64,000 nt of DNA from Paragemmobacter ruber (GTDB lineage: Bacteria > Pseudomonadota > Alphaproteobacteria > Rhodobacterales > Rhodobacteraceae): contig NZ_JAAATW010000001.1 in NCBI RefSeq assembly GCF_009908315.1, positions 1,054,001 through 1,118,000 on the forward strand, given 5' to 3'. Below, piece by piece: positions 48,118 to 63,999 of this stretch; the stretch's first letter is position 1, and each line of letters begins with the position of its first letter. Both the position numbers and the translations under genes were made by a program. The notes beneath the pieces are model-generated. The model made no database searches and had not been told where the DNA came from. It saw only the letters and a program-made list of their open reading frames with translations.

Positions 48118-49185
48118 CTATGGCTCTCGGCCTTCCAAAGCATCTTGCAACAGCCTGCGCAGCGCGGTGGGGGTAACTGAGCGGGGGTTCCAGTAGGGGT
48201 TTCGTGTGGCTAGATCCACGGCGCGGTCGAGGTCGGCTTCCCTGAGACCGAGGTCGCGGAGCGCCGTTGGCGCCTTCATGCTGGTGGCGAAAGCGTGGAG
48301 GGCTTGGCCTGGGCGGATTCCTCCGAAGATTTCGTTGATCGGTGCCAGTTCGCGTGCCGCTGCGGTTTCGTTATAGGCGATGGCGTGGGGCAGGATGATG
48401 GCGTGGGTTTCGGCGTGGGGCAAGTCGAAGCTGCCGCCGAGGGTGTGGCAGAGTTTGTGATGCAGCGCCATGCCGACCGTGCCAAGGACGGTGCCACAGA
48501 GCCACGCGCCATAGAGCGTTTCGCCGCGGGCGTGCAGATCGTCAGGGGTGTCGAGGACGCGGGGCAGGGCATCATGAAAGGCGCGCAGGCCTTCGATCGC
48601 CATGAGGGTGGAGACGGGCGAGCGGTTCTGGGCATAAAGGCCTTCTGCCGCATGGGCCATAGCGTTGAGCGCGCTGGTGACCGTCATGGATACGGGCAGG
48701 GTGCGGACAAGCTCGGCATCATAGAGGATGACTTCGGGCCGAACCTTGGGGGTGGTGATCGTGGTTTTCTGGCCATTCTCTGTCTGGCCAAGGATGGCGG
48801 TCGCCTCGGACCCGGCATAGGTGGTGGGGATGACGATCTGCGGCAGATCGGTGCGCAGGGCGATGGCCTTGCCGAGCCCCGTGGTGGAGCCGCCCCCGAT
48901 CGCGAGAAGGCAATCCGCGCCACTTTCGAGGGCGAGCGCTGTCGCCTCTTCGCTGATCGCGATGGGGGTGTGCATCGCCGCCTTGGGAAAGACGCCCGCG
49001 GCGCGGGGGCCGAGCAGGGCTGCGAATTCGGCGCCCGTGTCGGCCTGTTGCGGGGTGGTCAGGATCAAGGCACGGCTCAGGCCGAGGGTGTCCATCTCTT
49101 CGCCGACCTTGTGGCGGACCCCCGCGCCAAAGCGGACGCGCATGCCGGGAAGGGTGGTCGTGAACTGATCGAGGAAGAGGGACAT
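48118..49185 (-). CDS. Iron-containing alcohol dehydrogenase family, maleylacetate reductase type
   Basis: A 355-residue member of the maleylacetate reductase branch. The reaction is NAD(P)H-dependent reduction of maleylacetate to 3-oxoadipate in the cytoplasm. It has the nucleotide segment LLAIGGGSTTGLGKAIAL near residue 90, IPTTYAGSEATAILGQT, and the metal/His region HHKLCHTLGGSFDLPHAETHAIILPHAIAYN. The neighbours pcaF and pcaIJ handle exactly the product. The start MSLFLDQF is preferred over a longer frame of 29 low-complexity codons. Last gene of the minus-strand unit. Confidence 0.85.
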   Translation of the reverse strand: MSLFLDQFTTTLPGMRVRFGAGVRHKVGEEMDTLGLSRALILTTPQQADTGAEFAALLGPRAAGVFPKAAMHTPIAISEEATALALESGADCLLAIGGGSTTGLGKAIALRTDLPQIVIPTTYAGSEATAILGQTENGQKTTITTPKVRPEVILYDAELVRTLPVSMTVTSALNAMAHAAEGLYAQNRSPVSTLMAIEGLRAFHDALPRVLDTPDDLHARGETLYGAWLCGTVLGTVGMALHHKLCHTLGGSFDLPHAETHAIILPHAIAYNETAAARELAPINEIFGGIRPGQALHAFATSMKAPTALRDLGLREADLDRAVDLATRNPYWNPRSVTPTALRRLLQDALEGREP

Positions 49186-49214
49186 GGGGCCTGTCTTTCG
49201 GTTCTTGGTGTGGG

Positions 49215-50414
49215 TTAGACCCGTTCCAGCGCGATGCTGATGCCTTGGCCCACGCCGATGCACATGGTGCAAAGGGCGCGTCTGCCGCCGGTGAGGGTCA
49301 GTTCCAGTGCGGCTGTTCCGGTGATGCGGGCGCCTGACATGCCCAGCGGGTGGCCAAGCGCGATGGCCCCGCCGTTGCGGTTCACGCGGGGGTCATCATC
49401 CGCGATGCCAAGCTGGCGCAGGGTGGCGATGCCTTGGGCGGCGAAAGCCTCGTTCAACTCGATCACATCGAAATCGGCCTGGGTCAGGCCGAGGCGGGCA
49501 ATCAGCTTTTGGCTGGCCGGTGCAGGGCCGATGCCCATGATGCGCGGCGGCACGCCGGCCGTGGCACCGCCGAGGATGCGGGCGATGGGGTGGAGGTTGT
49601 GGCGCCTTGCTGCCTCTTCAGAAGCGAGGATAAGGGCCGCCGCCCCGTCATTGACGCCCGAGGCGTTGCCCGCCGTTACAGAGCCGTTGGGGAAAAGCGG
49701 CCTGAGCTTGGCCAGCGCCTCTGGCGTGGTGGCGCGGGGGTGTTCGTCGCGGTCCACGGTGACGGGATCGCCCTTGCGCTGGGGCAGGGTGACGGGGGTG
49801 ATTTCCCGTGCAAGCCGACCATTGGCCTGCGCGGCGGCGGCCTTGGCTTGGCTGGCCAGCGCCATGGCATCCTGTGCCTCGCGGGGGATGCCGTAGTCGT
49901 CGGCGACGTTCTGGCCGGTCTGCGGCATGGAGTCGGTGCCGTAGGCCGCCTGCAGGGCGGGGTTGATGAAGCGCCAGCCGATGGTGGTGTCGTGGATCTC
50001 GGCGTGACGGGAAAAGGCTGTGTCGGCCTTTGGCATGACGAAAGGCGCGCGCGACATGGATTCCACGCCGCCCGCGATCATCAGGTCTGCCTCGCCCGAG
50101 GCGATCTGGCGCGCCGCAGTGAGAACGGCATCCATGCCAGAGCCGCAAAGGCGGTTGATGGTCGTGCCGGTGACAGTGACGGGCAACCCCGCCAGAAGGA
50201 GCGACATGCGCGCCACGTTGCGGTTATCCTCGCCCGCCTGATTGGCACAGCCGAAGATGACGTCGTCGACCGCCTGCCAGTCCACGCCCGCGTTGCGCTC
50301 CACAAGCGCGCGGAGGGCAATGGCGCCGAGGTCATCGGGCCGGACCGAGGCAAGCGCGCCGCCGAAGCGGCCGATGGGGGTGCGGATGTAGTCGCAGATA
50401 TAGACGGGGGGCAT
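49215..50414 (-). CDS. pcaF: 3-oxoadipyl-CoA thiolase
   Basis: Thiolase of 399 residues. It cleaves 3-oxoadipyl-CoA to succinyl-CoA and acetyl-CoA in the cytoplasm. The active-site Cys is in NRLCGSGMDAV near residue 90; other marks are GGVESMSRAPFV, ELNEAFAAQ (NEAF), GHPLGMSGARI and the second cysteine in CTMCIGVGQG. MSRAPFVM and the context with pcaIJ favour the beta-ketoadipate enzyme over plain acetoacetyl-CoA thiolase. It lies 2 bases after pcaJ. Confidence 0.9.
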   Translation of the reverse strand: MPPVYICDYIRTPIGRFGGALASVRPDDLGAIALRALVERNAGVDWQAVDDVIFGCANQAGEDNRNVARMSLLLAGLPVTVTGTTINRLCGSGMDAVLTAARQIASGEADLMIAGGVESMSRAPFVMPKADTAFSRHAEIHDTTIGWRFINPALQAAYGTDSMPQTGQNVADDYGIPREAQDAMALASQAKAAAAQANGRLAREITPVTLPQRKGDPVTVDRDEHPRATTPEALAKLRPLFPNGSVTAGNASGVNDGAAALILASEEAARRHNLHPIARILGGATAGVPPRIMGIGPAPASQKLIARLGLTQADFDVIELNEAFAAQGIATLRQLGIADDDPRVNRNGGAIALGHPLGMSGARITGTAALELTLTGGRRALCTMCIGVGQGISIALERV

Positions 50415-50416
50415 GG

Positions 50417-51088
50417 TCAGATCTCCGGCACGGTCAGATCGGCAGGCGGGGCGGGGATCAGCAGTTCGGCCCCGGTCATGGACTGGAGTTCATCCACCGA
50501 GAGCGCAGGCAGTTTTTCCCGCAGGACGAAGCGGCCACCTTCGACGTCGATCACAGCGAGGCTGGAATAGATGCGGGTGACGCAGCCGACACCGGTCAGC
50601 GGCAGATTGCAGCGTTTCAGGAGCTTGGGCTTGCCATCCTTGGTGACATGGTCGGTGATGACCGCCACACGCTTTGCGCCGTGGACGAGGTCCATCGCTC
50701 CGCCCACGGCAGGCACGCCTTTCGGCCCGGTGGACCAGTTGGCAAGATCGCCGTTTTCGGCCACCTCATAGGCGCCGAGGATCGCCACATCGAGATGCCC
50801 GCCGCGCACCATGGCGAAGCTGTCGGCGTGATGGAAGAAGGCGGTCCCGGGTTTGAGGGTGACGGCCTTCTTGCCGGCGTTGATCAGGTCCCAATCCTCT
50901 TGCCCGGCAGCGGGGGCCTCTCCAAAGCCGAGGATGCCGTTTTCGGTGTGGAAGATGGCCTGACGCCCCGGAGGCTGGAACCGTGCCACCATTTCCGGAA
51001 AGCCGATGCCGAGGTTCACATAGGCACCATCCGCGATGTCCTGTGCGGCGCGCCATGCCATCTGGGTGGGAGTGAGTTTCGGGGTCAT
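50417..51088 (-). CDS. pcaJ: 3-oxoadipate CoA-transferase, subunit B
   Basis: Beta subunit of 223 residues of a family I CoA-transferase that moves CoA from succinyl-CoA to 3-oxoadipate. The catalytic glutamate is in HTENGILGFGEAP near residue 48. Also present are NLGIGFPEMVA, VRGGHLDVAILGAYEV and LPLTGVGCVTRIYSSLAVIDVEGG. The ATG overlaps the pcaI stop by 4 bases (ATGA). A longer His/Arg-rich frame upstream lies inside pcaI and is rejected. Confidence 0.92.
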   Translation of the reverse strand: MTPKLTPTQMAWRAAQDIADGAYVNLGIGFPEMVARFQPPGRQAIFHTENGILGFGEAPAAGQEDWDLINAGKKAVTLKPGTAFFHHADSFAMVRGGHLDVAILGAYEVAENGDLANWSTGPKGVPAVGGAMDLVHGAKRVAVITDHVTKDGKPKLLKRCNLPLTGVGCVTRIYSSLAVIDVEGGRFVLREKLPALSVDELQSMTGAELLIPAPPADLTVPEI

Positions 51089-51819
51089 TCTGCCACCTGC
51101 GGGTAACGGGCGTTGGCGCGGTTGAGCGTTTCTTCCTGTGCGGGGTTTTCGACCTGCACCACGCCCTGGACGAAGATGCCGGGGGTTATGACGGCTTCGG
51201 GGTCGATGCTTCCGGGGGCCATGATGCGCGAGACCTGCACAATGGTGGTGGTGGCGGCCATGCACATGAGCGGGTTGAAGTTGCGTGCGGCCATCCGGTA
51301 GGTGAGGTTGCCGAGCCGGTCGCCCAGATGCGCCTTGATGAGCGCATAGTCGGCCTTAAGCCAGCGTTCCTGCAAGTAAGGCCGCCCCTCGAACATCTCG
51401 ACCGGTTTGCCCTTGGCAAGGTCGGTGCCATAACTGGTGGGGGTGTAGAAGGCGGGGATGCCTGCGCCGCCCGCGCGGATGCGTTCGGCTAGGGTGCCTT
51501 GGGGGACAAGTTCCAGTTCGATCTGGCCTGCGAGGTAGCGGTCGGTGAAGACCACCGGATCGACAGAGCGGGGGAAGGAGCAGATGAGTTTGCACACCAT
51601 TCCCGCCTCGATCAGCGCGGCAAGGCCGATGTGGCCATTGCCGGCGTTGTTGTTCACCACCGTCAGGTCACGGGGATGGCCGGTCGCGTGGAAGCGGTCG
51701 ATCAGCGCATGGATCAGTTCGATCGGCGCGCCGGAGCCGCCGAAACCGCCGATCATCACGGTCATGCCATCCTGTATGCCCGCCACGGCAGTGGCGAGAT
51801 CGGGAAGCGTCTTGTCCAT
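51085..51819 (-). CDS. pcaI: 3-oxoadipate CoA-transferase, subunit A
   Basis: Alpha subunit of 244 residues. It has the CoA-binding glycine loop GMTVMIGGFGGSGAPIELIHALI near the N-terminus, NNNAGNGHIGLAALIEAGMV, LVPQGTLAERIRAGGAGIPAF and the C-terminal ITPGIFVQGVVQVENP. It pairs with pcaJ. It starts 26 bases after the regulator-like gene's stop, on the same strand. Confidence 0.92.
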   Translation of the reverse strand: MDKTLPDLATAVAGIQDGMTVMIGGFGGSGAPIELIHALIDRFHATGHPRDLTVVNNNAGNGHIGLAALIEAGMVCKLICSFPRSVDPVVFTDRYLAGQIELELVPQGTLAERIRAGGAGIPAFYTPTSYGTDLAKGKPVEMFEGRPYLQERWLKADYALIKAHLGDRLGNLTYRMAARNFNPLMCMAATTTIVQVSRIMAPGSIDPEAVITPGIFVQGVVQVENPAQEETLNRANARYPQVAE

Positions 51820-51845
51820 CCTTTGGTCTCCGATGTCTGGGGTCC

Positions 51846-53573
51846 TCAGGTCGCGTTCACCAATCTGAGGATGCTGTTTTCCGCATCGCGCAGCGCCTGC
51901 TTGGGGTTCTTGCCATGGAATACGGCGTCATGGATTTCGGTGCCCAGAACCTGTTCGATCAGACTGAATTCCTTGATGGGCGGGCGGGCCCAGGTCACCA
52001 GTTCATTGCGGCGGGCCAATTGATCGACCATGCTGACGATGGGCGAGGAGGCCAGCGCCTCGGGATCCGCGCAGACCGAAAAGCGGGGGGCGACGGGGAA
52101 GCCGTTTTTGACATGGGCTTTCATCGCCTCGGGCGAGACCATCCAGGCGATGGCGTCGATGATCTGCTTTTGCCGGGCTGGTTTGACGGTGGCGGGGATC
52201 GTCATAAGGAAGCCGCCGATGGGGGCTGCGATCTGGCGCATCCGGCGCGAGGGCGGCGGCAGATAGGCCACGCGGCGGGTGACCTGCGAGCTGAGTTCGT
52301 GTTCGAAGCGAGCGGCACGCATTGTCCAGCAATAGACCATGCCCGCACGGCCCGACATGAAGCACTGGGTGTGCTTTTCCCAATCCATCGTGGCGATATC
52401 GGGGGGCGAGACTTCGACAAGCTGTTTCATGTAGTCGATCACCTCGAGCGCGTCAGTGGTGTCGAGCTGAAGCTTCAGCTTTTCGAAGCGCGGGAAATCC
52501 CAGCCTTCGGGATTGTGCATCGGCACGTCGATGATGGTCTTTTGGCAGGCGGCAAGAAAGAACATGAAGGAATGCGCAATGGGCATGCCGCGATGGCCGT
52601 TCCAGGCGATGCCGTAGAATTCCTGCGCCGGGCGGTGCAGGGCGCGGGCGGCAGCGATGGTTTCATCGAAGGTGCGCGGGAAGATGAGGCCCTTGTCTTC
52701 GAATAGGTCGCGGCGGGCGGCGAGGATCTCAATCGTGCAGTAGAGCGGGATGCCGTATTGCCTGCCTTTCCAGTTGCCGGTGCCCCAGACGGAGGGGTGG
52801 AAGTCGAGCGGGTTGATGGCGGCATCCTGCAACAGATCGTCGAGGGGGGCGAGGTAGCCCTTCTCGGCGAATTCCCCAAGCCAAGGCATGTTGATGGAGA
52901 TGACGTCGTATTCGGCGGCGGGCTTCTGGAAGGTGGCATGCGCGCTGGCATAGAGGTCCGGCAGGCGCTGCAGATCGAAGCTGCTTTTGCGGCTGAGGTC
53001 GTTGCGGAAATCCGACCACATGTTGCGCATGGACGAAAAGTAGTTGTCGTCGTTCAGCAGGAAGCGGATGTCGCCGGGCACCTTGCCTTCGATGTCGTCG
53101 CCGCGGATGGGCGAGATGATCTGCGCGGCGAAGTAGCTGCCGCCGAAGTAGTATTCATCCGCCTCGGTCCCCTTGCGCAGGCCGAAGGTGCGGGCGAGGT
53201 GACCTTTGACATGGTTGGCGAAGTCCATGAAGCTGTCGAGCAGCGTGTCGGTGGGTTCAAGGAAATGGGTCTTGAGCCCGCCGCCGCGCGGCACCTGCCG
53301 GATCAGACCGTCTTCGATCATCTTGGTCACGGCGCGGTTGCCTGTGCTGTAGGGCACCCCCGAAAGCGTGATGAGGCCTGACTTGTCGATGGGGCGGCGG
53401 CGCAGATGGGCATCCACCAGTTCCAGCACGATGTTCCAGAACGTGTCCTTCGATGCGCCGGGAACGCCCGTATCAAAAGGGGCGCGGAGTTTGCGCAGGA
53501 AGTCCACGATGCGCGACAATTCGTGCGGGGTCAGTTCCCTGCGCGCCGTGATCTGCGTGTTCTGTTGCTGCAC
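51846..53573 (-). CDS. Winged-helix domain fused to an ABC solute-binding (family 1) domain
   Basis: A 575-residue protein of unusual layout. Residues 1-115 have no signal peptide. They hold a helix-rich unit with a wing-like strand pair (LTPHELSRIVDFLRKLRAPF, LITLSGVPYSTGNRAVTKMIEDGLIRQVPRGGGLKT), a typical winged helix-turn-helix. Residues 130-570 match the extracellular solute-binding family 1 fold: AEYDVISINMPWLGEFAEKGYLAPLDDLL, GIPLYCTIEILAARRDLFEDKG, MSGRAGMVYCWTMRA, IGGFLMTIPATVKP. Without export it should stay in the cytoplasm, so a ligand-sensing transcription factor is the simplest reading. It lies between the beta-hydroxyacid dehydrogenase gene and pcaI. Confidence 0.75.
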   Translation of the reverse strand: MQQQNTQITARRELTPHELSRIVDFLRKLRAPFDTGVPGASKDTFWNIVLELVDAHLRRRPIDKSGLITLSGVPYSTGNRAVTKMIEDGLIRQVPRGGGLKTHFLEPTDTLLDSFMDFANHVKGHLARTFGLRKGTEADEYYFGGSYFAAQIISPIRGDDIEGKVPGDIRFLLNDDNYFSSMRNMWSDFRNDLSRKSSFDLQRLPDLYASAHATFQKPAAEYDVISINMPWLGEFAEKGYLAPLDDLLQDAAINPLDFHPSVWGTGNWKGRQYGIPLYCTIEILAARRDLFEDKGLIFPRTFDETIAAARALHRPAQEFYGIAWNGHRGMPIAHSFMFFLAACQKTIIDVPMHNPEGWDFPRFEKLKLQLDTTDALEVIDYMKQLVEVSPPDIATMDWEKHTQCFMSGRAGMVYCWTMRAARFEHELSSQVTRRVAYLPPPSRRMRQIAAPIGGFLMTIPATVKPARQKQIIDAIAWMVSPEAMKAHVKNGFPVAPRFSVCADPEALASSPIVSMVDQLARRNELVTWARPPIKEFSLIEQVLGTEIHDAVFHGKNPKQALRDAENSILRLVNAT

Positions 53574-53583: not shown

Positions 53584-54507
53584 CTATTGCGCGGAAATCC
53601 CTGAATGCCATTTGATCAGGGCAAAGAAGTCATCCTGATCATGGCCGGTATTGGCGGCCGCGCGATACAGTTCGAGGATCAGCCCTGCCGTCAGCAGCGG
53701 CACACCCTTGGCGCGCCCGGCATCGCTGATCAGGGTGAAATCCTTGATCATCTGCTGCACCGTGAAGGCGGGTTTGTAATCCCCCGACACGATGAGGGAT
53801 GATTTATACTTGAACAACGGCGAGGCAACGGCGCTTTCGTTGATCACCTCGACCATCTTCTCGGCGCTCAGGCCACCGCTTGCCCCCAGCGACAGCGCCT
53901 CGGCAAGGATGGCGGCGTTGGCACCGACGAGCGTGTTGATCACAAGCTTCATGTAGCGCGCCTCTTCGCCGGGGCCGAGGTAGAACTGGCGCGTGGAGAA
54001 GTGGCGGATGAGGGGAAGCGCTTCGTCCCACCCGGCCGGATCGCCAGAGGCGAGGACAGTCAGGGCGCCCTGCTGCGCGGTGGTGGTGCTGCCCGAGACG
54101 GGGGCGCGGACATAGCGAATTCCCGCCGCGTCCAGCGCTGCTGCCACGTCGGCAGAGGCATCGGGAGAGACGGTGCTCATGTCCACGAAGGTGGCGCCGC
54201 GCGCGAGCACGCCCGCAAGGCCGGGCTCTGTGTCGCTGCCAAGAACCACAGCGCGCAAGGCGTGATCGTTTGGCAGGGTTGCAAAGACGATGTCACAGCG
54301 CGAGACTGCCGAAAGGTCGGCTGATGTGGCGGCCCCGGCTTGCTGTAGTGCGGCGCGCGCGTCCGGATCGGGTTCTGAAACCGCGACCGGATATCCGGCG
54401 CCGAGAAGGCGGAGCGACATCGGCGCGCCCATCTTGCCCGCCCCGACCCAGCCTGCCTGCAGGGCGTTCTCGGGCGCCACGTCCGCCCGTGCCAGATGCG
54501 ACTCCAT
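53584..54507 (-). CDS. NAD(P)-dependent beta-hydroxyacid dehydrogenase
   Basis: A 307-residue member of the 3-hydroxyisobutyrate dehydrogenase family: Rossmann motif AGWVGAGKMGAPMSLRLL near residue 20, DMSTVSPDASADV, substrate loop RAPVSGSTTTAQQGALTVLASGD, and the catalytic lysine in ARYMKLVINTLVGAN. Reversible oxidation of a hydroxyacid such as tartronate or hydroxyisobutyrate is the family role; the substrate here is unknown. GGAGGAG precedes the ATG by about 10 bases. First gene of the minus-strand unit, divergent from the MDR dehydrogenase gene. Confidence 0.88.
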   Translation of the reverse strand: MESHLARADVAPENALQAGWVGAGKMGAPMSLRLLGAGYPVAVSEPDPDARAALQQAGAATSADLSAVSRCDIVFATLPNDHALRAVVLGSDTEPGLAGVLARGATFVDMSTVSPDASADVAAALDAAGIRYVRAPVSGSTTTAQQGALTVLASGDPAGWDEALPLIRHFSTRQFYLGPGEEARYMKLVINTLVGANAAILAEALSLGASGGLSAEKMVEVINESAVASPLFKYKSSLIVSGDYKPAFTVQQMIKDFTLISDAGRAKGVPLLTAGLILELYRAAANTGHDQDDFFALIKWHSGISAQ

Positions 54508-54802: not shown

Positions 54803-55870
54803 ATGCGTGCAGTAAGGTTTCACGGGGCAAAGGACATCCGGGTGGAGGATGTGGCCGAGCCGTCGGATCGGCTTGCCCATGATGACGTGCTGATCGCGCC
54901 GGTGGTTTCTGGGATCTGCGGAACGGACCTGCATGAATACATCGCGGGCCCGATCGTCACGCCAAAGACGCCGCATGCCTACACGGGCGCGACCAATCCG
55001 CAGATCCTTGGGCACGAATTTTCGGCGCTTGTCCTGAAGGTTGGTGATGCGGTCAGCCATGTGAAGGCGGGCGATCGTATCTCGATCCAGCCGCTTTTGT
55101 CGCCGCGCGACGATTATTATGGCCGGCGCGGGCTGTTCCATCTGTCGCCCAGCATGGGTTGCGTCGGGCTGAGCTGGGCCTGGGGCGGGATGGGCGAGAA
55201 GGCGGTGATCAAGGATTACAACGCCCAGCCGGTGCCGGACGGGATCACGGATGAGCAGGCCGCGATGATCGAGCCTGCCGCAGTGGCGCTTTACGGGGTG
55301 GATCGTGGGCGCGTGGAGGCGGGATCGACGGTTCTTGTGTCGGGTGCGGGTCCCATCGGGGCGCTGACGGTGCTTGCGGCAAAGGCGGCGGGCGCGGCAA
55401 CGATCATCGTGGCAGAGCCTAACCCCAATCGCCGCCGCATCATTTCGGACATAGCGCCCTATGCCCATGTAGCGGATACCCGAAGCGGAGAAATTGCGAA
55501 GATCGTAGCCGATCTGACCGAGGAGGGCGTTGGAGTGGACGTGGCGCTGGAATGTGTCGGGTTGGAAGCGTCTCTTAACACCTGTGCCGAGGCGGTGCGT
55601 CGTCAAGGGCGGGTGGTGCAGGTGGGCCTGCACATGGCGCCCGCGCGCGTGGATGCCATGCTTTGGGCGCTGAAGGATATCACGGTCGAGGCGACGTGGT
55701 GCTACCCGACGCAGATCTGGCCGCGCATCGCTCGTATGATCGCGGCGGGTATTTTCCCGGTCGAGAAGGTCATCACCGCCCGGATCGACGCCAAGGATGT
55801 GGTCGCCAAGGGGTTCGAGGCGCTGCTCGACCCGTCGGGTGAGCATCTGAAGATCCTTGTCCGCACGTGA
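54803..55870 (+). CDS. MDR alcohol dehydrogenase, butanediol dehydrogenase-like, lacking structural zinc cysteines
   Basis: A 355-residue medium-chain dehydrogenase. Catalytic zinc ligands fit GICGTDLHEY (Cys near 40) and GHEFSALV (His-Glu). The nucleotide fold is VLVSGAGPIGALTVLAAKAAGA. In the lobe where 2,3-butanediol dehydrogenases carry four structural-zinc cysteines, the sequence reads LLSPRDDYYGRRGLFHLSPS, and none remain. It should oxidise a secondary alcohol or polyol in the cytoplasm. The start follows GGAGGAGG by 6 bases; a longer upstream frame is low-complexity. It opens the plus-strand unit. Confidence 0.87.
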   Translation: MRAVRFHGAKDIRVEDVAEPSDRLAHDDVLIAPVVSGICGTDLHEYIAGPIVTPKTPHAYTGATNPQILGHEFSALVLKVGDAVSHVKAGDRISIQPLLSPRDDYYGRRGLFHLSPSMGCVGLSWAWGGMGEKAVIKDYNAQPVPDGITDEQAAMIEPAAVALYGVDRGRVEAGSTVLVSGAGPIGALTVLAAKAAGAATIIVAEPNPNRRRIISDIAPYAHVADTRSGEIAKIVADLTEEGVGVDVALECVGLEASLNTCAEAVRRQGRVVQVGLHMAPARVDAMLWALKDITVEATWCYPTQIWPRIARMIAAGIFPVEKVITARIDAKDVVAKGFEALLDPSGEHLKILVRT

Positions 55871-55898: not shown

Positions 55899-56969
55899 AT
55901 GAGCACGAAGAACGTAGCCCTGATCGTGGGGGCGACCGGCCTGTCCGGCAGTTACACGGGCCGCCTGCTGAAGGAAAATGGCTGGACCGTAGTGACGCTG
56001 TCGCGTGGTGTGGCGGACCTTGAATTCTCGGACCGTCATATCGCGGCGGACCTCACGGATGGGGCTGGCAGCAAGGCGGCACTGGCGGCGGCGCAGGACG
56101 TGACGCATGTGTTCTTCTGCACCTGGTCGCGGCAGCCGAACGAGGCCGAGAATGTACGCGTGAACGGCGCGATGATCCGGCATCTGTTCGAGGGGCTGGA
56201 GGGCGCGGCCCTGAAACACGCCGCGCTGGTGACGGGGTTGAAGCATTACCTGGGGTCGTTCGACGACTATGCGAAGGTGAAGCCTTACACCCCCTTCCTT
56301 GAATCCAGCCCGCGCCTGCCGGGGCTGAACTTCTATTACGCGCAAGAGGATGTGCTGTTCGAATTCGCGGCAAAGCGCGGCTTTACCTGGTCGGTGCATC
56401 GCCCGCATACGATGATCGGTTTCGTCATCGGCAATGCGATGAACATGGCGGTGACGCTGGCCTGCTATGCCGTGATCTGCAAGCATACGGGGCGGCCCTT
56501 CGTCTATCCGGGGTCAACCGAGCAGTACAACGCCGTCACCGATGTGACGGATGCGCGTCTGCTGGCCCGGCAGTTGCTTTGGACGGTCGATACGCCCGCC
56601 GCGGCCGATACGCCCTTCAACACGGCCAATGGCGACGTGTTCCGCTGGACATGGCTGTGGCAGCAGATCGCGGATTACTTCGGGCTGGAGGTCGCGCCGC
56701 ATCCGGGCCATCCCACCCCGCTTGTCGCGCAGATGGCGGATTCGCCCAAGATCTGGGCCGAGATCGTGGCGCAGCACGGGCTGCAGGACATCCCGGTCGA
56801 TCGGCTGGCGTCGTGGTGGCACAGCGACGCCGATCTGGGACGGACGCTGGAATGTTTTACCGACATGACCAACAGCCGGACGCTTGGCTTTGCCGCCTAT
56901 CAGTCCACCCGCAACAGCTTCACTGACGTCTTCGATGAATTGAAGGCGCGCAAGATCATCCCCGCCTGA
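55899..56969 (+). CDS. PRISE-family enone reductase (progesterone 5-beta-reductase-like SDR)
   Basis: An atypical SDR of 356 residues. Nucleotide motif VGATGLSGSYTGRLL near residue 10; the PRISE catalytic lysine motif VTGLKHYLGSF near residue 112; the tyrosine motif NFYYAQEDVLFE near residue 148; then FTWSVHRPHTMIGF and YNAVTDVTDARLLARQLLW. PRISE enzymes reduce the double bond of 1,4-enones such as progesterone or iridoid precursors. In bacteria they are rarely characterised. Here it sits amid sugar-type oxidoreductases, implying an unsaturated keto intermediate. The start is the ATG after GAGAGAGACCGAGA. Confidence 0.85.
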   Translation: MSTKNVALIVGATGLSGSYTGRLLKENGWTVVTLSRGVADLEFSDRHIAADLTDGAGSKAALAAAQDVTHVFFCTWSRQPNEAENVRVNGAMIRHLFEGLEGAALKHAALVTGLKHYLGSFDDYAKVKPYTPFLESSPRLPGLNFYYAQEDVLFEFAAKRGFTWSVHRPHTMIGFVIGNAMNMAVTLACYAVICKHTGRPFVYPGSTEQYNAVTDVTDARLLARQLLWTVDTPAAADTPFNTANGDVFRWTWLWQQIADYFGLEVAPHPGHPTPLVAQMADSPKIWAEIVAQHGLQDIPVDRLASWWHSDADLGRTLECFTDMTNSRTLGFAAYQSTRNSFTDVFDELKARKIIPA

Positions 56970-56986: not shown

Positions 56987-57271
56987 ATGCACTATGTCGT
57001 TCACTGCCTTGACCATGAGGGGGCCGTCGGCACCCGTCTGGCGAATTACGAGGCCCACAAAGCCTATCTCGCGGCTGCCACGGTGAGGACCGTGATTTCC
57101 GGCCCGCTGCTGGCCGATGACAACGAGACGATGATCGGATCCTGCTTCGTGCTGGAAGCCGACAGCCTTGCCGATGTGCAGGCGTTCAACAGCAATGATC
57201 CGTTCAACAAGGTGGGTCTTTGGAAGACCGTGTCGATTCGGCCCTTCCTCAAGCGCGTGGATAACCGGTGA
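56987..57271 (+). CDS. YciI-family protein
   Basis: A 94-residue dimeric alpha/beta-barrel protein: MHYVVHCLDHEGAVGTRLANYEAHKAYL, then ISGPLLADDNETMIGSCFVLEADSLADVQAFNSNDPF and KTVSIRPF. Family members include TftG of 2,4,5-trichlorophenoxyacetate breakdown, which acts next to a maleylacetate reductase, and muconolactone-isomerase-like proteins. A lyase or isomerase role on a cyclic intermediate is possible. The stop overlaps the next ATG (TGATG). Confidence 0.85.
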   Translation: MHYVVHCLDHEGAVGTRLANYEAHKAYLAAATVRTVISGPLLADDNETMIGSCFVLEADSLADVQAFNSNDPFNKVGLWKTVSIRPFLKRVDNR

Positions 57272-58278
57272 TGGCGGGTCCGGTGAAGATCGCCCTCGTG
57301 GGCATGGGGTGGTGGGGCCAGAAGATGCTGGCCGTGCTTGAGGCCGCGCCCGAGGATATCCGCGTGGTTCGTGCGGTGGAGCCGAATGTCGACGGCGTGC
57401 GCGCGCTGTGTGACGGCAAGGGCATCCCTCTTTCGGCCGATTACGCCGATGCGCTGGCCGATCCGGAGGTGGAGGCGGTGGTGCTGGCCACGCCCCATTC
57501 GCTGCATACCGCGCAGATCGCGGCGGCGGTGGCGGCGGGCAAGCACATCTTTTGCGAAAAGCCACTGGCGCTGACCAAGGCCGAGGCAGAGCAGTCGGTC
57601 GCGCTGTGCCGGGATGCGGGGCTGGTGCTGGGCATGGGGCACGAGCGGCGGTGGGAACCGCCGGTGGCCGAGATGCTGGCACTGGCGGATGCCGGGACTT
57701 TGGGCCGCATCCACCAGATCGAGGCGAATTTCAGCCACGACAAGTTCCTGTCGCTGGATCGCGGCAATTGGCGGCTGAAGGCGGATCAGGCCCCGGCGGG
57801 GGGCATGACGGCCACCGGCATCCATCTGCTGGACCTTTCGGTGCGGTTGCTTGGTCCCGCGGAAAGCGTGCTTTGCATTTGCGAACAGCTGTCTTCTGAC
57901 CTGCCGCAGGGCGACACGGTCGCGGCCTATGTGAAGTTCAAGGGCGGCGGGACCTCCTATGTCTCGGCCTCGCTGGCCAATCCGTTCATGTCGCGCTTCA
58001 CGGTCTATGGATCGGGCGGCTGGATCGACATCCGCGACAAGGCCCACGTCGAGGCGCCGGATGGCTGGATCGTGACCTCCGCCATGAAGGGCGGGCCGAT
58101 CATGACGACCGAGGTCGGAAAGGCCGAACCCGTGAAGGACAATCTGGTGGCCTTTGCCCGCGCCGTGCGGGGCGGGGCGGCCTATCCGATCACCGCAGAC
58201 CATCTGGTGAACAATATCGCACTGCTTGAGGCGGTGTTCCGCTCGGCCCTGTCGGGCCGGATCGAAACCGTTGCCTGA
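57271..58278 (+). CDS. Gfo/Idh/MocA-family oxidoreductase
   Basis: A 335-residue sugar or polyol dehydrogenase family member. N-terminal Rossmann motif VKIALVGMGWWGQKML; the family EKP motif FCEKPLAL near residue 96 (catalytic lysine); GLVLGMGHERRWEPPVAEML; and the histidine GIHLLDLSVRL near residue 182. Homologues oxidise inositols, glucose-6-type sugars or 1,5-anhydro sugars with NAD(P). The ATG overlaps the YciI stop. A GTG three bases earlier is the alternative start. Confidence 0.9.
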   Translation: MAGPVKIALVGMGWWGQKMLAVLEAAPEDIRVVRAVEPNVDGVRALCDGKGIPLSADYADALADPEVEAVVLATPHSLHTAQIAAAVAAGKHIFCEKPLALTKAEAEQSVALCRDAGLVLGMGHERRWEPPVAEMLALADAGTLGRIHQIEANFSHDKFLSLDRGNWRLKADQAPAGGMTATGIHLLDLSVRLLGPAESVLCICEQLSSDLPQGDTVAAYVKFKGGGTSYVSASLANPFMSRFTVYGSGGWIDIRDKAHVEAPDGWIVTSAMKGGPIMTTEVGKAEPVKDNLVAFARAVRGGAAYPITADHLVNNIALLEAVFRSALSGRIETVA

Positions 58279-58293: not shown

Positions 58294-59274
58294 ATGAAGG
58301 CGCTCATCTTCGATCAGCCGAACAAGCCCGTGGTGACGGATGTCCAGACCCCGGGGATCACCGAGAACGAGGTCCTCGTCCGGTCGCGGCGTGTCGGTAT
58401 CTGTCATTCGGATTACGAATTGTTGGCGGGCAAATACATCATCCCAATCAGCTATCCGGTCACGCCCGGCCATGAATGGGTGGGCGAGGTGGTCGAGGTG
58501 GGTCGCAACGTCAAGGGGTTCCGGCCCGGCGACCGTGTGGTGGGCGAATGCGTGATCCGCACACCCGAACGCATCCACCATTTCGGCTTTTCGATGGACG
58601 GGGCGAACCGCGAGTATTTCGCGGCACGGCCGGAATGGCTGCACAAGTTGCCGGAGGCCGTGGATGACGCCAAGGGCGCGCTGATCGAACCGTTTACCTG
58701 CGGGTACTACGCCGTGCTGCGGCATGGCGGTGTGAACCCGTCGCATCGGGTGGTGGTGTCGGGCGGCGGGACAATCGGTCTGGTGACGGCTGCGGCCGCC
58801 ATCGGGATGGGGGCCGAGGTGATCGTGGTCGATCCCGTGCCGCTGCGCCGCGAGATCGCGATGAAACTGGGTTGCGTGGGCACGGTTGACCCGATGAACG
58901 GCAATCCGGTCGAGGCGGTGACAGAGATGACGAAGGGTGGCGCCGACCTCGTGGTCGAGGCGGCGGGTCATGCGGCGTCTTTGGCAAACGTGTTCGACTA
59001 TGCGCGGCCCGAGGGCTGTGTGTCGATGGTGGGGATCAGCATCGGCCAGAAGATCCCGGTGGAGCTGGGCAAGATCCAAATCAAGGATCTGGACGTGAAG
59101 GGCTGCATCGGGTCGCCCGGTGTGTGGCCTTCGGCCATCCGGTTCCTCGAGCGGACGGGGTTCGACCTGTCGCCGATCCAGACGCACAGCTTTGCGCTGG
59201 ATGACGCGCTGACGGCCTATGAGCTGGGCAAGGACCCGACCAAGGCCGTGAAGATCACGCTGGAAATCGCCTGA
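58294..59274 (+). CDS. Zinc-type alcohol dehydrogenase, sugar-acid/polyol branch
   Basis: A 326-residue MDR enzyme: catalytic ligands in RVGICHSDYELLAGK and GHEWVGEVVEVG, GDRVVGECVIRTPERIHHFGFSMDGANREYF, nucleotide motif VVVSGGGTIGLVTAAAAIGMGA, and SMVGISIGQKIPVELGKIQIKDL. It resembles L-idonate/galactonate-type and RspB-like dehydrogenases. Structural-zinc cysteines are absent here as well. It lies 15 bases after the Gfo/Idh gene with GGGAGA before its ATG. Confidence 0.87.
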   Translation: MKALIFDQPNKPVVTDVQTPGITENEVLVRSRRVGICHSDYELLAGKYIIPISYPVTPGHEWVGEVVEVGRNVKGFRPGDRVVGECVIRTPERIHHFGFSMDGANREYFAARPEWLHKLPEAVDDAKGALIEPFTCGYYAVLRHGGVNPSHRVVVSGGGTIGLVTAAAAIGMGAEVIVVDPVPLRREIAMKLGCVGTVDPMNGNPVEAVTEMTKGGADLVVEAAGHAASLANVFDYARPEGCVSMVGISIGQKIPVELGKIQIKDLDVKGCIGSPGVWPSAIRFLERTGFDLSPIQTHSFALDDALTAYELGKDPTKAVKITLEIA

Positions 59275-59304: not shown

Positions 59305-60309
59305 ATGCTGGACAATCCGGGGACGGCGACGATGCAGGGTGCTGCGCCCGACTGGCGGTCGGTGCGGTTGGCGCGCGGTTTCGTCACGGTGGTCGTCTCC
59401 ACCGTCGCGCTGCTGGTCCTGTGCTGGGCTGTCGCGCCGTCGGCTGTTTCGGCGGGGGCGCTGGCGGGAAGCCTGCCCTTCGCGGCGATCATCGCCATCG
59501 TGGGGCTGGGGCAGATGCTGGTCGTGCAGCAGGGCGGGTTCGACCTGTCGCTGGCGGGCGGTGTGTCGTTGGCCGTGGTGATCACGACCCATTTGCCGTC
59601 GGGGAATGATGCGGCGCTGCCGTCGGCGATCCTGCTTGCGCTGGCCTTTGCCACGGTGGCGGGGGTGGCGAACGGCATCCTGGTCGGCGTTATGCGGCTG
59701 AATGCGATCATCGCGACGATCGGGATTAATGCGGTTCTTTACGGGGCTGTGTTTGCGGTCTCGGGCGGTGTGCCGCGCATCACGACCCCTCTGATGTCTG
59801 CGATTGCCGGGGGCAAGACGGCGGGCATCCCGAACTCGGTCCTGTTTGCGCTTGCGCTGATGCTGTTGGTCAGTTTCGTGCTGAAGAAAACGGTCGTCGG
59901 GCGCCGGTTCGAGGCGATCGGTGCCAACCCTGCCGCTGCGCATGCTGCAGGGCTGCGGGTGCGGCTGCATCAGACGATGGCCTATGTCTATGCGCAACTG
60001 CTCTACTGCGTGGCCGGTATCCTGATCTCCGGGATCACGCGCGAACCCACCGCCTTTCAGGGGGATAGCCTGCTGCTGCCGTCGGTAGCCGTCGTGGTGC
60101 TGGCGGGGACATCGCTGCTGGGCGGTCGGGGGTATCCGATTTCGACGGTGGTCGCTGCGTTCTTCCTGAACCAGCTGAGCCAATTCGCCCTTGCCGTCGG
60201 AGTGCCGTTCTCGGCCCAGACCATCATCCAGGCCTTGGCCCTGGTCTGTGGGATCGGCGTCTACTCGGTCCGCTGGAAGCGGTCCGCAAGAACTCGTGCA
60301 TCAAAGTAA
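59305..60309 (+). CDS. Ribose-type ABC importer, stand-alone permease
   Basis: RbsC-like permease of 334 residues: AIIAIVGLGQMLVVQQGGFDLSLAGGVSLAVV, GVANGILVGVMRLNAIIATIGINAVLYG, AIGANPAAAHAAGLRVRLHQTMAYVYAQ and LAGTSLLGGRGYPISTVVAAFFL. Helices number about ten. It probably pairs with the permease half of the fused protein two genes later to make the full pore. The start ATG (MLDNPGTATM) has GGGGGAGCGG upstream. Confidence 0.9.
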   Translation: MLDNPGTATMQGAAPDWRSVRLARGFVTVVVSTVALLVLCWAVAPSAVSAGALAGSLPFAAIIAIVGLGQMLVVQQGGFDLSLAGGVSLAVVITTHLPSGNDAALPSAILLALAFATVAGVANGILVGVMRLNAIIATIGINAVLYGAVFAVSGGVPRITTPLMSAIAGGKTAGIPNSVLFALALMLLVSFVLKKTVVGRRFEAIGANPAAAHAAGLRVRLHQTMAYVYAQLLYCVAGILISGITREPTAFQGDSLLLPSVAVVVLAGTSLLGGRGYPISTVVAAFFLNQLSQFALAVGVPFSAQTIIQALALVCGIGVYSVRWKRSARTRASK

Positions 60310-60333
60310 GTCCAAACTCGGAGGATACGGACA

Positions 60334-61395
60334 ATGTCTATGGCAAAACCGATGAAGGCGGCTCTGGCAGCCTTTGCACTGACTACCGCCGTTGGCGCGA
60401 CGGCCGCGATGGCGGAAACGCCGTCCTGGTGCGGGCCGAACGAGGCCTCGCTCGCCCTGCTGGACGGGTTTGGCGGGAACAGCTGGCGTCTGGTGACGAC
60501 GGCATCCGGCGCGGAAGAGGCGGCGAAGTGCCCGACCATCACGCAGTATGAATATGCCGACGGTCAGGGCAACACGCAGAAGGCGATTTCGGACATCAAC
60601 TCGATGGCTGCGCGCGGGATCAACGCGCTGGTGGTGTTCGGCGATGCCGGCCCCGCCGTGCTGCCCGCGCTGACCAATGCGCATCGTTCCGGTGCGGTCG
60701 TGGTGCCCTACCGCGTCGACGTGGGTGGCGCGGAAGGCGAGAACTACGCCAAGTTCATTGGGTCGTCCTTCGTCGAGGACGGCAAGAGCTGGGGCAATTG
60801 GATCAAGGAAATCCTGCCCGAGGGCGGCAACATCCTGTTCCTGTCCGGCCCGGCGGGCAACAGCCAGGGACTGGACGAGCTGAAGGGGATGAAGGAGGTT
60901 CTGGACGACAAGTATGTCTTCGTGAACCCTGAACCCTTTGCCGTCACCAACTGGGACCCGGCGCTGACGCAGCAGGTCCTGTCGGCCGAGATCGCGAAGA
61001 ACGACAAGATCGACGTGATCGTGTCCGACTTCGGCCCGTCTCTGGTGGGCGCGCTGCCGGTGTTCAAGGAATATGGCCGCTCGATCCCGGCGCTCGCCAC
61101 CTCGGACGGCAACTCGCTGGCCTGCTTCTGGGAGCAGAACAAGGACGCCAACCCGGACTTCAAACTCTTCACCGTCGCGACCGGCAACGACAACGTGCGT
61201 CTGGCCGTGCAGTGGGCGGTCGCGCTGGCGACCGGTGGCACGCCGCCTGCGGACAACATCTTCAAGGCGCCGGTCTACGAGAACTCCGTCACGGGTCAGC
61301 CGAACCCTGTCACCTGCCGTCCCGACCTGCCGGGCGCGATCTACCTGTCCGCCGAGCTGGCGGATGACGCGCAGGCCAAGGCGGTCGGCCAGTAA
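60334..61395 (+). CDS. Sugar-type ABC importer, periplasmic binding protein
   Basis: Type I periplasmic binding protein of 353 residues with signal peptide AALAAFALTTAVGATAAMAET. The mature protein starts with a region rich in cysteine and tryptophan (PSWCGPNEASLALLDGFGGNSWRLV). It continues with QGNTQKAISDINSMAARGINALVVFGDAGPAV and RSGAVVVPYRVDVGGAEGENYA. The N-terminal cysteine may pair with one in AAKCPTI. The branch is seen with importers for unusual sugars; the ligand is unknown. AGGA lies 7 bases before the ATG. Confidence 0.9.
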   Translation: MSMAKPMKAALAAFALTTAVGATAAMAETPSWCGPNEASLALLDGFGGNSWRLVTTASGAEEAAKCPTITQYEYADGQGNTQKAISDINSMAARGINALVVFGDAGPAVLPALTNAHRSGAVVVPYRVDVGGAEGENYAKFIGSSFVEDGKSWGNWIKEILPEGGNILFLSGPAGNSQGLDELKGMKEVLDDKYVFVNPEPFAVTNWDPALTQQVLSAEIAKNDKIDVIVSDFGPSLVGALPVFKEYGRSIPALATSDGNSLACFWEQNKDANPDFKLFTVATGNDNVRLAVQWAVALATGGTPPADNIFKAPVYENSVTGQPNPVTCRPDLPGAIYLSAELADDAQAKAVGQ

Positions 61396-61403
61396 GGAGA
61401 ACC

Positions 61404-61431: not shown

Positions 61432-61470
61432 ATCCAATCGTTGCGGACCCTCATTGATCGAGGCCGACCC

Positions 61471-63999
61471 ATGCCCGAGGCAGAGCCGATGATGCACATG
61501 AACGCGCCGCAGGCGACCGATCCCGCCCATGCAGAGCCGATCCTGCGGCTGTCGAACATCACCAAGGAATTTTCGGGGGTCGTGGCCCTTTCGGAGGCGT
61601 CGGTGGACATCTTCCCCGGCGAGGTTCACGCCATCCTTGGCGAGAATGGTGCGGGCAAGTCGACGATGATGAATATCATCTCGGGTGTTTTTCCTCCCAC
61701 ACGCGGGACCATTTCCGTCGAGGGCGACGTGATCGCCGCCATGACGCCGGAAAAGGCGGCGGCGCTGGGCGTCGCGATTTCCTATCAGCATCCGGCCGTG
61801 CTGGATGATCTTTCGGTGCTTGAGAACTTGCGCGTTGCCTTGCCGGATCGCGTCTTTGCGGGCGGCGATCCACATGTGATCGCGAAGGGGATGCTGGAGG
61901 ATGTCGGGCTTCATGTGCCGCTGATGGCGCGGGCGGACGGGTTGACCGTCGCGCAGAAGCACCTGCTGGAGATTGCGAAGGCGCTGGCGGTGCAACCGCG
62001 CATCCTGATCCTTGACGAGCCTACCGCTGCCCTTGACCAAGAGGCGACGGACATGCTCTTCGACCGCATCCGTGCGGTCGTGGCAAAGGGGACGGCGGTG
62101 ATCTACATCACGCACCGGCTGGCGGAGCTGCGCCAGATCGCGCGGCGCGTGACGGTGCTGCGCGACGGGCGGGTCGAGGGGCGCGCGCTGGTTGCGGATG
62201 TGTCCGACGACGACCTTCTGGGAATGATCGTGGGGCGCAGCCTTGCCTCGGCCTTTCCGCCGAAATGCGCGGAGGCTGCGCCGCCCGTGAATTTCACCGT
62301 TCGCGGGCTGACGGGGCGCAAGGTGCGCGACGTGTCCTTCGAGGTCGGACGAGGCCAGATCATCGGGATCGCCGGGGTCGAGGGGAACGGTCAGGCCGAG
62401 GTGATGCGCGCGCTGGCCGGGCTGGAAAGCTGGCAGGGCGAGGTGGTGCTGAACGGGGCATCGCTGGCACCGGCCGCGGTTAAGGCCAAGGCGGCCTACA
62501 TGCCGTCAGATCGCCATTCCGAAGGGATCGCGTCGGAACTGACGGTGCGCGAGAATGCGACGTTTTCGGCGGTGGACCGCTTTGCAAGCGCAGGGATCGT
62601 GGATCGTCGCCGCGAACTGGCCGAAGTCGGGCGCATTTTCGGATCGCTGGCGGTCAAGGCACCGGGGATGGAGGCGGGCATCCTGTCGCTGTCCGGCGGA
62701 AACCAGCAGAAGGTGGTGATGGCGCGCGCGCTGCTGTCGCAGCCGGGCTTCATTCTGGCCGACGAGCCGACGCAGGGCGTGGACGTTGGCGCGCGGTTCG
62801 AGATCTATCGCATCCTGCGCGAGGTTTCGGCCTCGGGCGTGCCGGTGATCGTCAACTCATCGGACGCGGCGGAGCTGGAGGGGCTGTGCGACGTGGTCGT
62901 CGTGCTGTCGCGGGGCCGCGTGGCCGAGACGCTGCGCGGCGATGAGGTGACCGAGGATCGCATCGTCGCGGCGGCGGTGAAGGCGCAGTCGCATGTGACG
63001 GGCGACGGAGCGTCAACGCGCGCCGTGTCGGACCGTAAGGCGGGGCTGCGGCAGCTGATCGACAGCGACAATGCGACGGTCTATCCGCTGGCGGCGGTGA
63101 TCGTGGCGCTGGCGCTTTATGTGTTCAGCCAGAACGGGAATTACCTTTCTTCCTTCAACATCTCGAACATCCTGCTTCTGGCGACAGCGCTGGGCTTCAT
63201 CGCGTTGGGGCAGACGGTGGCGCTGCTGATGGGGGGGATCGACCTGTCGGTCGGGCCTCTGGCCGGGTTCCTTGTCGTGGTGGCGTCGTTCTTCATCAAT
63301 GACGGGCAGGCCCCGCAGACCATCGCGCTGGGCTTTGCGTTGATGTTCGGGGTGGCGGTTGTCGTGGGGGCGGTGAACGGGTGCCTGATCCGGTTCGCCC
63401 ATTTCACCCCGATCGCGGCCACTCTGGCCATGTATATCGGCCTGCAAGGCATGAGTTTCGTGCTGCGGGATGGCCCGGACGGGTACATCAACTTTGCCGT
63501 GATGGATTTCATCGGCTGGAAGCTTGGGCCGATCCCGCTGGCCTTTGTCGTTCTGGTGATCGTCGCGCTGGTGGCCGAGCGGGTGTTGAGGCATCGCCGC
63601 GCGGGCTGGCAACTGCGTGCGATCGGATCGGACGAGGGCGCGGCGCGGCGCATGGGCATCCGCATCGACCGCACGGTGATCGCGGGCTACGTCGCGGTGT
63701 CGCTGTTCACGGCTCTGGGGGCGGTGATGCTGATGGCGCAGATCGGCGTCGGTGATCCGCAGCAGGGCGTCAGCTACACGCTGGCTTCCATTACGGCGGT
63801 GGTTCTGGGCGGAACGAGCCTGCGGGGCGGGCGCGGCACCTTCATCGGGACGCTCATGGGGGCGGTCCTGCTGACCGAGGTGTTGAACGCGGTATCGTTC
63901 CTCGGGCTGTCCCAGATGTGGCAGTACCTGTTCCAAGGCGCGCTGATCCTTGCCGCAGCTCTGGTCTATTCGACCGCTCGCAGTCGCGCGCAGGCCTGA
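61471..63999 (+). CDS. Fused ABC ATPase-permease of a ribose-type importer
   Basis: An 842-residue fusion of RbsA and RbsC types. The first ATPase domain has GENGAGKST, a degenerate signature (LTVAQKHLLEIAKAL) and LILDEPTAALDQ. The second has GVEGNGQAE in place of Walker A, LSGGNQQKVVMARALL and FILADEPTQGVDVG near residue 430. From about residue 520 a complete ten-helix permease follows ([69 protein letters not shown]). With the separate permease gene this would give two NBDs and two membrane domains per transporter. GAGG precedes the ATG; ten more codons upstream are possible. It stops one base before the window end. Confidence 0.9.
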   Translation: MPEAEPMMHMNAPQATDPAHAEPILRLSNITKEFSGVVALSEASVDIFPGEVHAILGENGAGKSTMMNIISGVFPPTRGTISVEGDVIAAMTPEKAAALGVAISYQHPAVLDDLSVLENLRVALPDRVFAGGDPHVIAKGMLEDVGLHVPLMARADGLTVAQKHLLEIAKALAVQPRILILDEPTAALDQEATDMLFDRIRAVVAKGTAVIYITHRLAELRQIARRVTVLRDGRVEGRALVADVSDDDLLGMIVGRSLASAFPPKCAEAAPPVNFTVRGLTGRKVRDVSFEVGRGQIIGIAGVEGNGQAEVMRALAGLESWQGEVVLNGASLAPAAVKAKAAYMPSDRHSEGIASELTVRENATFSAVDRFASAGIVDRRRELAEVGRIFGSLAVKAPGMEAGILSLSGGNQQKVVMARALLSQPGFILADEPTQGVDVGARFEIYRILREVSASGVPVIVNSSDAAELEGLCDVVVVLSRGRVAETLRGDEVTEDRIVAAAVKAQSHVTGDGASTRAVSDRKAGLRQLIDSDNATVYPLAAVIVALALYVFSQNGNYLSSFNISNILLLATALGFIALGQTVALLMGGIDLSVGPLAGFLVVVASFFINDGQAPQTIALGFALMFGVAVVVGAVNGCLIRFAHFTPIAATLAMYIGLQGMSFVLRDGPDGYINFAVMDFIGWKLGPIPLAFVVLVIVALVAERVLRHRRAGWQLRAIGSDEGAARRMGIRIDRTVIAGYVAVSLFTALGAVMLMAQIGVGDPQQGVSYTLASITAVVLGGTSLRGGRGTFIGTLMGAVLLTEVLNAVSFLGLSQMWQYLFQGALILAAALVYSTARSRAQA

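Follow-up and report, generated by a model that had tools for sequence, protein, structure and literature searches.

Why should the genes of a sugar-type importer be packed together with genes that complete the degradation of aromatic rings? The question arises from a 64,000-nucleotide stretch of the Paragemmobacter ruber genome (NCBI RefSeq assembly GCF_009908315.1, contig NZ_JAAATW010000001.1; G000:C1:1054001-1118000), which was analysed as a whole and is called the window below. Near its right end, a first-pass annotation had noted a divergent cluster that combines a ribose-type importer and several oxidoreductases with the last enzymes of the 3-oxoadipate route, and had proposed one joint system for a cyclic, non-aromatic compound. 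Reading onward past the right edge of the window (stretch L004), we find 18 genes, four of them beyond the window, in two divergent runs with gaps of -8 to 79 bp within the runs and 295 bp between them. The cluster, which is conserved, joins a sugar-type importer and several polyol-type dehydrogenases to hydroxyquinol cleavage without the usual linked hydroxylase. We judge the chances about even that the whole is one catabolic system leading from an alicyclic polyol through hydroxyquinol and maleylacetate to succinyl-CoA and acetyl-CoA.

A ring-cleavage dioxygenase gene adjoins the importer genes

The gene for a hydroxyquinol-type intradiol dioxygenase (HQD; L004:1079-1939, Dioxygenase_N/C domains) starts 79 bp after the ATPase-permease gene of the importer, on the same (plus) strand and just past the window end; the earlier statement that no ring-cleavage dioxygenase is present was a window-edge effect. 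The nearest solved chain is 8r2x (6-chlorohydroxyquinol-1,2-dioxygenase, 423 bits), followed by the hydroxyquinol dioxygenase 1tmx and by PnpC, all ahead of the catechol dioxygenases. The protein contains the motifs VLGPF, GFYD, SYPIP and AHMH, which we take to be those of intradiol dioxygenases. These nearest structures suggest specificity for hydroxyquinol, and by similarity the protein would be the intradiol dioxygenase of a hydroxyquinol lower pathway. Because the operon holds a dioxygenase of this type, ring opening most likely goes through hydroxyquinol. HQD belongs to the plus-strand run; linkage to the minus-strand unit alone was the arrangement that the first-pass annotation had named as speaking against a joint system.

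Inside the window the plus-strand run consists of eight genes, for a butanediol/sorbitol-type medium-chain dehydrogenase/reductase (MDR; this member BDH), a PRISE-type enone reductase, a YciI-family protein, a Gfo/Idh/MocA dehydrogenase (Gfo), a second MDR dehydrogenase (MDR2), and the permease, binding protein and ATPase-permease of the importer. The six genes of the minus-strand run encode maleylacetate reductase (MAR), PcaF, PcaJ, PcaI, a protein with a winged-helix-turn-helix-like and a solute-binding-protein domain (wHTH-SBP) and a beta-hydroxyacid dehydrogenase (BHAD). Pfam and NCBIfam profile searches bore out the gene families named in the first-pass annotation, and the starts used for MAR (48118–49185) and BDH (54803–55870) are plausible. 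The clustering exceeds chance, as the 18 genes are close-packed and similar clusters recur in other taxa.

Importer, dehydrogenases and dioxygenase recur together

A collection with one genome per species (84,980 species) was scanned by Gfo alignment, and the best 80 loci were taken as a sample rather than a census. Gfo was at least 60% identical in 23 of these, several on short contigs. At identity thresholds of 60% for BDH, MDR2 and YciI, 50% for PRISE and 48% for HQD and MAR, these 23 loci contained BDH in 20 cases, MDR2 in 21, YciI in 15, PRISE in 12, HQD in 11 and MAR in 9; a CUT2-type ATPase (30%) was present in 20 and a binding protein of the window's own type (60%) in 7. PcaI and PcaF, each at 60% or above, were found in one locus apiece (L033 and L037, respectively). 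The plus- and minus-strand units, whose separate occurrence would have spoken against a joint system, do travel together, with wHTH-SBP (30%) in 12 and BHAD (38%) in 14 of the 23. The same thresholds yielded an ABC ATPase match in two of the remaining 57 loci and nothing else; one of the 57 (L077) has PcaI and PcaJ at 52–55%, below the thresholds. The importer, polyol-type dehydrogenases, YciI and MAR thus form a recurring set in the neighbourhood search that the first-pass annotation had suggested.

Similar clusters occur in Rhodobacterales and in rhizobia and their relatives, and a partial one, with dehydrogenases and HQD, in one Paraburkholderia. A similar divergent arrangement is found on plasmids of Loktanella salsilacus (L024), Sinorhizobium sp. 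B11 (p1, L029), Rhizobium tumorigenes and Rhizobium sp. WL3 (L112, L113); the R. tumorigenes stretch lacks an annotated PRISE. Four more genomes of the window's family carry a similar cluster (L025–L028, with a different gene order in L026). In the sister clusters of both groups MAR adjoins HQD within the importer run or beside it (in L026 as judged from coordinates). Beside L048, coordinates alone place a 61% HQD ~10 kb from Gfo. Open-reading-frame calling was crude. The unassigned frames that recur in the cluster loci are those of a further CUT2 binding protein, presumed antisense shadows, and some genes specific to the Mesorhizobium/Kaistia variants described below (old-yellow-enzyme-like and others).

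Co-distribution was followed in a sample of 198 family genomes. The same five genomes (G000, G005, G077, G144 and G192) are those with PRISE of at least 80%, those with Gfo of at least 85% and those with HQD of at least 72% identity, and in each of them HQD lies ~6–11 kb from Gfo. The next-best matches were 53% over length for PRISE (apart from one 56% fragment), 44% for Gfo and 71% for HQD, which leaves a sharp break for Gfo and PRISE and a thin one for HQD. Some intradiol match is present in 148 of the 198 genomes.

The hydroxylase of related loci was not found in the cluster loci

Seven HQD relatives outside the cluster served as controls, six from family genomes (67–71%, L114–L119) and one from a Kaistia genome (69%, L121) that also holds a Gfo cluster. 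G142, with a 67% HQD at a contig end, and family genomes with HQD at 62% or below were left out; in L115 the 69% match was obscured by the choice of open reading frame, and the tabulated value is that of a 42% neighbour. Flavin-hydroxylase-like frames were found within ~7 kb of HQD in all seven control loci, along with MAR-like genes (58–71% identical to that of the window) and ABC genes which, by reading, resemble those of a branched-chain-type importer. Probes taken from two of the control hydroxylases, which are blind to unrelated oxygenases, matched 7/7 controls and 0/32 cluster loci, the latter comprising 83 kb of the genome from which the window comes as well as short or divergent loci (e.g., L047, L049 and L051). 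The linked flavin hydroxylase that characterises a resorcinol/phenol-type upper module is therefore found in every control and, by these probes, in none of the cluster loci. Judged by this difference, one lower pathway appears to be combined with two upper modules.

These data bear directly on the possibility that the substrate is an ordinary aromatic or hydroaromatic compound whose hydroxylase is encoded elsewhere, the sugar-type genes being a separate pathway that shares the operon and the island. Such an arrangement would have to account for an HQD gene in one packed run with the importer, for the joint recurrence of importer, dehydrogenases and HQD in Rhodobacterales and Hyphomicrobiales (dehydrogenases and HQD in Paraburkholderia), and for control loci that keep the hydroxylase near HQD in every case. 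PF01494 proteins do occur elsewhere in the genome, the window MAR is closest to the MARs of hydroxylase-type loci, and the HQD of the cluster is 67–71% identical to the HQDs of such loci. On balance, we regard this explanation as rather unlikely.

The importer, its probable substrate and variants of the cluster

The importer has the components of a CUT2 system: a permease (59305–60309, BPD_transp_2), a periplasmic binding protein (60334–61395, Peripla_BP_4) and a fused double ATPase-permease (61441–63999, two ABC_tran domains and BPD_transp_2), all on the plus strand. The binding protein was modelled (pLDDT 70) with a ribose-binding-protein (RbsB-like) fold; an attempt to read the ligand from this fold was given up, as it showed no ligand preference. 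By analogy, a binding protein of the CUT2 class can bind a cyclic polyol, since a passage in PMC3454389 describes binding of myo-inositol by the CUT2 protein SMb20712.

myo-Inositol itself was considered as the main substrate and set aside as less likely, given a canonical iolD elsewhere in the genome. That gene, on another contig (C3:51209), is the sole match over the curated cut-off, and no iolD is part of the cluster; the frames beside it read like iolC, iolE and iolB (L125; labels by reading, not by profile search). Because iolD is located elsewhere, a dedicated cluster is likelier for another cyclitol, and the substrate is probably an alicyclic polyol, namely a cyclitol other than myo-inositol. 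The joint system recognised in the first-pass annotation is real and its guess at the class of substrate was sensible. A cyclic non-aromatic substrate is our best reading as well. The annotation had also proposed that a non-aromatic ring is opened directly to a C6 keto-acid; this is not supported, and cleavage by the intradiol dioxygenase of the operon is most likely instead.

One variant bears on this reading. Ruegeria atlantica (L038, L128) has BDH (74%), PRISE (61%), Gfo (74%) and MDR2 (79%) flanked by genes that read as E1/E2-like on one side and E3-like on the other (2-oxoacid dehydrogenase); the stretch also holds an aldehyde-dehydrogenase-like gene (by reading), BHAD (44%) and VOC (52%). 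There is no HQD nearby, the only relative (40%) being on another contig, which means that the shared upper module does not depend on an aromatic product. Such a gene set would be expected from a shared intermediate of the cyclic acyloin or diketone type, rather than an aromatic one. The variant favours an intermediate that is cyclic but not aromatic. It argues against a hydroxyquinol glycoside, and with it against the view that a phenol-type conjugate (an aryl glycoside or similar) is imported, the importer and dehydrogenases handling its sugar part and HQD the released ring. Although a CUT2 importer fits glycosides, and although the weaker PDB matches of the window Gfo include Gfo/Idh proteins such as DgpA, which we take to act on glycosides, no match to a glycosidase, lyase or hydroxylase family was obtained for the 18 genes (a single small protein is without any match), and Ruegeria retains the dehydrogenases without a dioxygenase beside them. 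We consider the conjugate improbable.

In the Mesorhizobium/Kaistia variants, HQD-like genes (43–47%) lie ~11–14 kb downstream of Gfo (positions read directly for L040 and L052, in L129 and L130, and taken from coordinates for L039 and L065). The L129 and L130 regions contain a second Gfo (41%), YciI (38–43%), and FAH-like, divergent HQD, amidohydrolase-like and old-yellow-enzyme-like genes. These variants probably serve a related but different substrate. Use of quinate/shikimate is suggested by the genes that follow the Loktanella cluster (L024:25978-29068), whose annotations are shikimate dehydrogenase, sugar isomerase/4-hydroxyphenylpyruvate-domain protein and TRAP binding protein.

Predicted dehydrogenase, reductase and YciI functions

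BDH (54803–55870) and MDR2 (58294–59274), zinc-type MDR proteins of the plus strand by profile, resemble butanediol and sorbitol dehydrogenases, and both keep Cys, His-Glu and Glu motifs, which we take to be the zinc ligands of polyol dehydrogenases. The rhizobial version of the cluster adds a short-chain dehydrogenase/reductase near acetoin reductase (301 bits versus a cut-off of 304). Gfo (57268–58278, plus strand) was assigned by Pfam and NCBIfam profiles. The PRISE-type protein (55899–56969, plus strand) scores 73.6 bits against PF22917 (gathering score 27), contains the motifs GLKHY and FYYAQED, and has steroid/progesterone 5-beta-reductases as its nearest solved chains; the reaction ascribed to PRISEs is reduction of the activated C=C bond in 1,4-enones (PMC11643720, in part).

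The YciI protein (56987–57271, plus strand, PF03795) has TftG (4lbh) as its nearest solved relative, in agreement with the label given in the first-pass annotation. Its His24 and Asp71 align with the His and Asp of TftG and are invariant in alignment A2, so that the His-Asp dyad of a TftG-type dehydrochlorinase is present. TftG depends on this dyad (PMC7641849, in part) and converts chlorohydroxyhydroquinone to hydroxybenzoquinone, which is later reduced and cleaved (PMC3975901, in part). By analogy, the YciI protein may eliminate water here. That the substrate is instead a halogenated ring from which YciI removes halide, after the manner of the tft pathway (TftG, hydroxyquinol dioxygenase, MAR), is highly improbable, because the nearness of YciI to TftG and of HQD to 8r2x is set against 18 genes without a recognised halophenol hydroxylase, a CUT2 importer and polyol dehydrogenases that do not fit, and carriers whose stated sources are wheat leaf, Rubus tumour, soybean/soil and a pond metagenome.

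Lower pathway genes

MAR and the 3-oxoadipate enzymes were both recognised, by profile and by identity, on the minus strand. MAR (48118–49185), of the iron-dependent alcohol dehydrogenase fold, passes no NCBIfam cut-off and is named from 51–54% identity to proteins annotated as MAR. It is 66–71% identical to the MARs of the hydroxylase-type loci L114, L116 and L119, 58–61% to those of L115, L117, L118 and L121, and 49–58% to those of the sister clusters. The 3-oxoadipyl-CoA thiolase PcaF (49215–50414) scores 666 bits with TIGR02430 (cut-off 597), and the CoA-transferase subunits B (PcaJ, 50417–51088) and A (PcaI, 51085–51819) match Pfam CoA_trans. A Cypionkella cluster (L033) has PcaI (87%) and PcaJ (86%) at the end of the plus run, and in L037 PcaF (73%) and MAR follow HQD at a distance of a few genes. 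The nearest relative of the window cluster (L032) carries HQD, with no PcaI in the 2.2 kb beyond its wHTH-SBP gene. Because PcaI and PcaF each reach 60% in just one of the 23 high-Gfo loci, pcaIJF looks like a local addition, and the MAR-PcaFJI block has probably been acquired locally, supplying the same last steps.

Regulator, remaining genes and genomic island

The wHTH-SBP protein (51846–53573, minus strand, SBP_bac_8/1) has neither a strongly hydrophobic N-terminus nor an evident signal peptide and is presumed to be a cytoplasmic regulator. The wHTH label is a reading of the structural model, in which residues 21–130 form a block with pLDDT 68–95; the whole model averages 63, and the N-terminal part alone is usable. 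The protein probably senses the substrate, and may represent a class of regulators in which a binding-protein fold serves to sense the ligand. BHAD (53584–54507, minus strand) has NAD_binding_2 and NAD_binding_11 domains. Beyond HQD, the plus run continues with a ketopantoate-reductase-like protein (KPR; L004:1950-3023) for which the broad PanE subfamily cut-off is the only one reached (144 versus 141 bits), a small protein without Pfam or NCBIfam match (L004:3016-3354) and a VOC-type protein (L004:3390-3908). An earlier reading of the small protein as tautomerase-like had no supporting evidence and was dropped.

The one congener compared (G104) lacks ~33.5 kb after recR; the aligned blocks break off at about window position 47790 and start again at about 81325 (window numbering; ~L004:18325). 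In the sequence aligned, one base is duplicated where two stretches of the contig join, well to the right of this junction. The alignment suggests that the 33.5-kb stretch after dnaX-ybaB-recR is likely a genomic island, and insertion here or loss in G104 would both fit. A tyrosine-recombinase-like gene inside it (L004:4201-4833) is 73% identical to an annotated tyrosine-type recombinase ~4 kb from the Loktanella cluster. In addition to the cluster described here, the stretch holds a second sugar-type cluster (L004:5089-16720), in which sugar-type-regulator-like, E1/E2-like 2-oxoacid dehydrogenase and CUT1-type ABC frames were recognised by reading; Pfam matches add a DRL-type oxidoreductase and a PfkB kinase.

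Proposed route

The data show which genes are present, how closely they are packed, that they recur and are co-distributed, and that a flavin hydroxylase of the control type is not linked to them; from this we infer the class of substrate, the order of the steps and every activity of the following route. The CUT2 importer would take up an alicyclic polyol, whose ring hydroxyls BDH, Gfo and MDR2 would oxidise to ketones, easing water loss. The TftG-like YciI protein would catalyse the elimination, and PRISE or another reductase would remove a C=C bond or reduce a quinone, so that hydroxyquinol is reached without an oxygenase. HQD would then open the ring to maleylacetate, MAR would form 3-oxoadipate, and PcaIJ and PcaF would yield succinyl-CoA and acetyl-CoA. 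The formulas balance for an inositol (C6H12O6 − 3 H2O) and for quercitol (C6H12O5 − 2 H2O − 2 H), both giving hydroxyquinol, C6H6O3. A more specific form of the route is put forward tentatively: a cyclitol, for example a quercitol-type deoxy-inositol, might be aromatised to hydroxyquinol without an oxygenase, with YciI proteins as dehydratases, such that a carbohydrate enters the aromatic funnel.

Several observations weigh against this route. No cluster gene matches a known dehydratase family (Pfam and NCBIfam, 18 genes), and water loss is assigned to a 94-residue YciI protein whose activity is putative. Ala182 of Gfo stands where inositol dehydrogenases presumably have a catalytic Asp. KPR, VOC, BHAD and the small protein are given no step. 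HQD falls short of every NCBIfam equivalog cut-off (highest score 160 against 359 bits, chlorocatechol dioxygenase), and only a narrow step separates the HQDs of family genomes that have the cluster (72%) from those of genomes that lack it (71%). The fold search with the binding protein gave ribose-type matches, the inositol-binding 4irx ranking 43rd; 4irx was first in a single-sequence search but sixth by profile. Among the 23 high-Gfo loci, some of them on short contigs, 8 are without YciI at 60%, 11 without PRISE at 50% and 12 without HQD at 48%, and the Mesorhizobium/Kaistia variants have an FAH-like gene instead of a MAR at 48% in the stretches examined. As to the PF01494 proteins of the genome, the nearest longer match is ~141 kb from the cluster and only 26% identical to a control hydroxylase.

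If true, the route would join sugar/polyol uptake with aromatic ring cleavage, normally separate parts of metabolism, would offer a possible function for uncharacterised YciI and bacterial PRISE proteins, and would provide enzymes that lead from a polyol to a trihydroxybenzene. It narrows the candidate substrates to a few that are testable in Loktanella salsilacus, Rhizobium sp. WL3, Sinorhizobium sp. B11 and Ruegeria atlantica.

Comparison with known systems

No description of such a cluster is among the titles listed in one open-licence literature library. The resorcinol- and tft-type hydroxyquinol pathways share HQD and MAR with the present cluster and, in the tft case, YciI/TftG; they make hydroxyquinol by means of a hydroxylase, whereas here NAD(P)-dependent oxidoreductases and a CUT2 importer take its place. 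Likewise, the seven control loci combine a hydroxylase with a branched-chain-type-like importer in contrast to the CUT2 importer found here, although a relative of the small protein L004:3016-3354 (31–40%) is present in four of the seven. The canonical iol pathway has Gfo/Idh and CUT2 importer classes and a similar initial oxidation of a ring hydroxyl, but differs in that the only iolD over the cut-off is outside this cluster. The MDR dehydrogenases of the window also resemble IolM (scyllo-inosose 3-dehydrogenase) of the oxidative inositol route, though both, at 141 and 165 bits, are far below the cut-off of 450.

The conversion of quinate and shikimate to protocatechuate aromatises a cyclic polyol through oxidation and loss of water, and the resulting ring then undergoes intradiol cleavage. 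None of the 18 genes here matches the quinate dehydrogenase or dehydroshikimate dehydratase families, and the expected end compound is hydroxyquinol rather than protocatechuate. A cyclitol-aromatising route would thus be the carboxyl-free counterpart of the route from quinate to protocatechuate.

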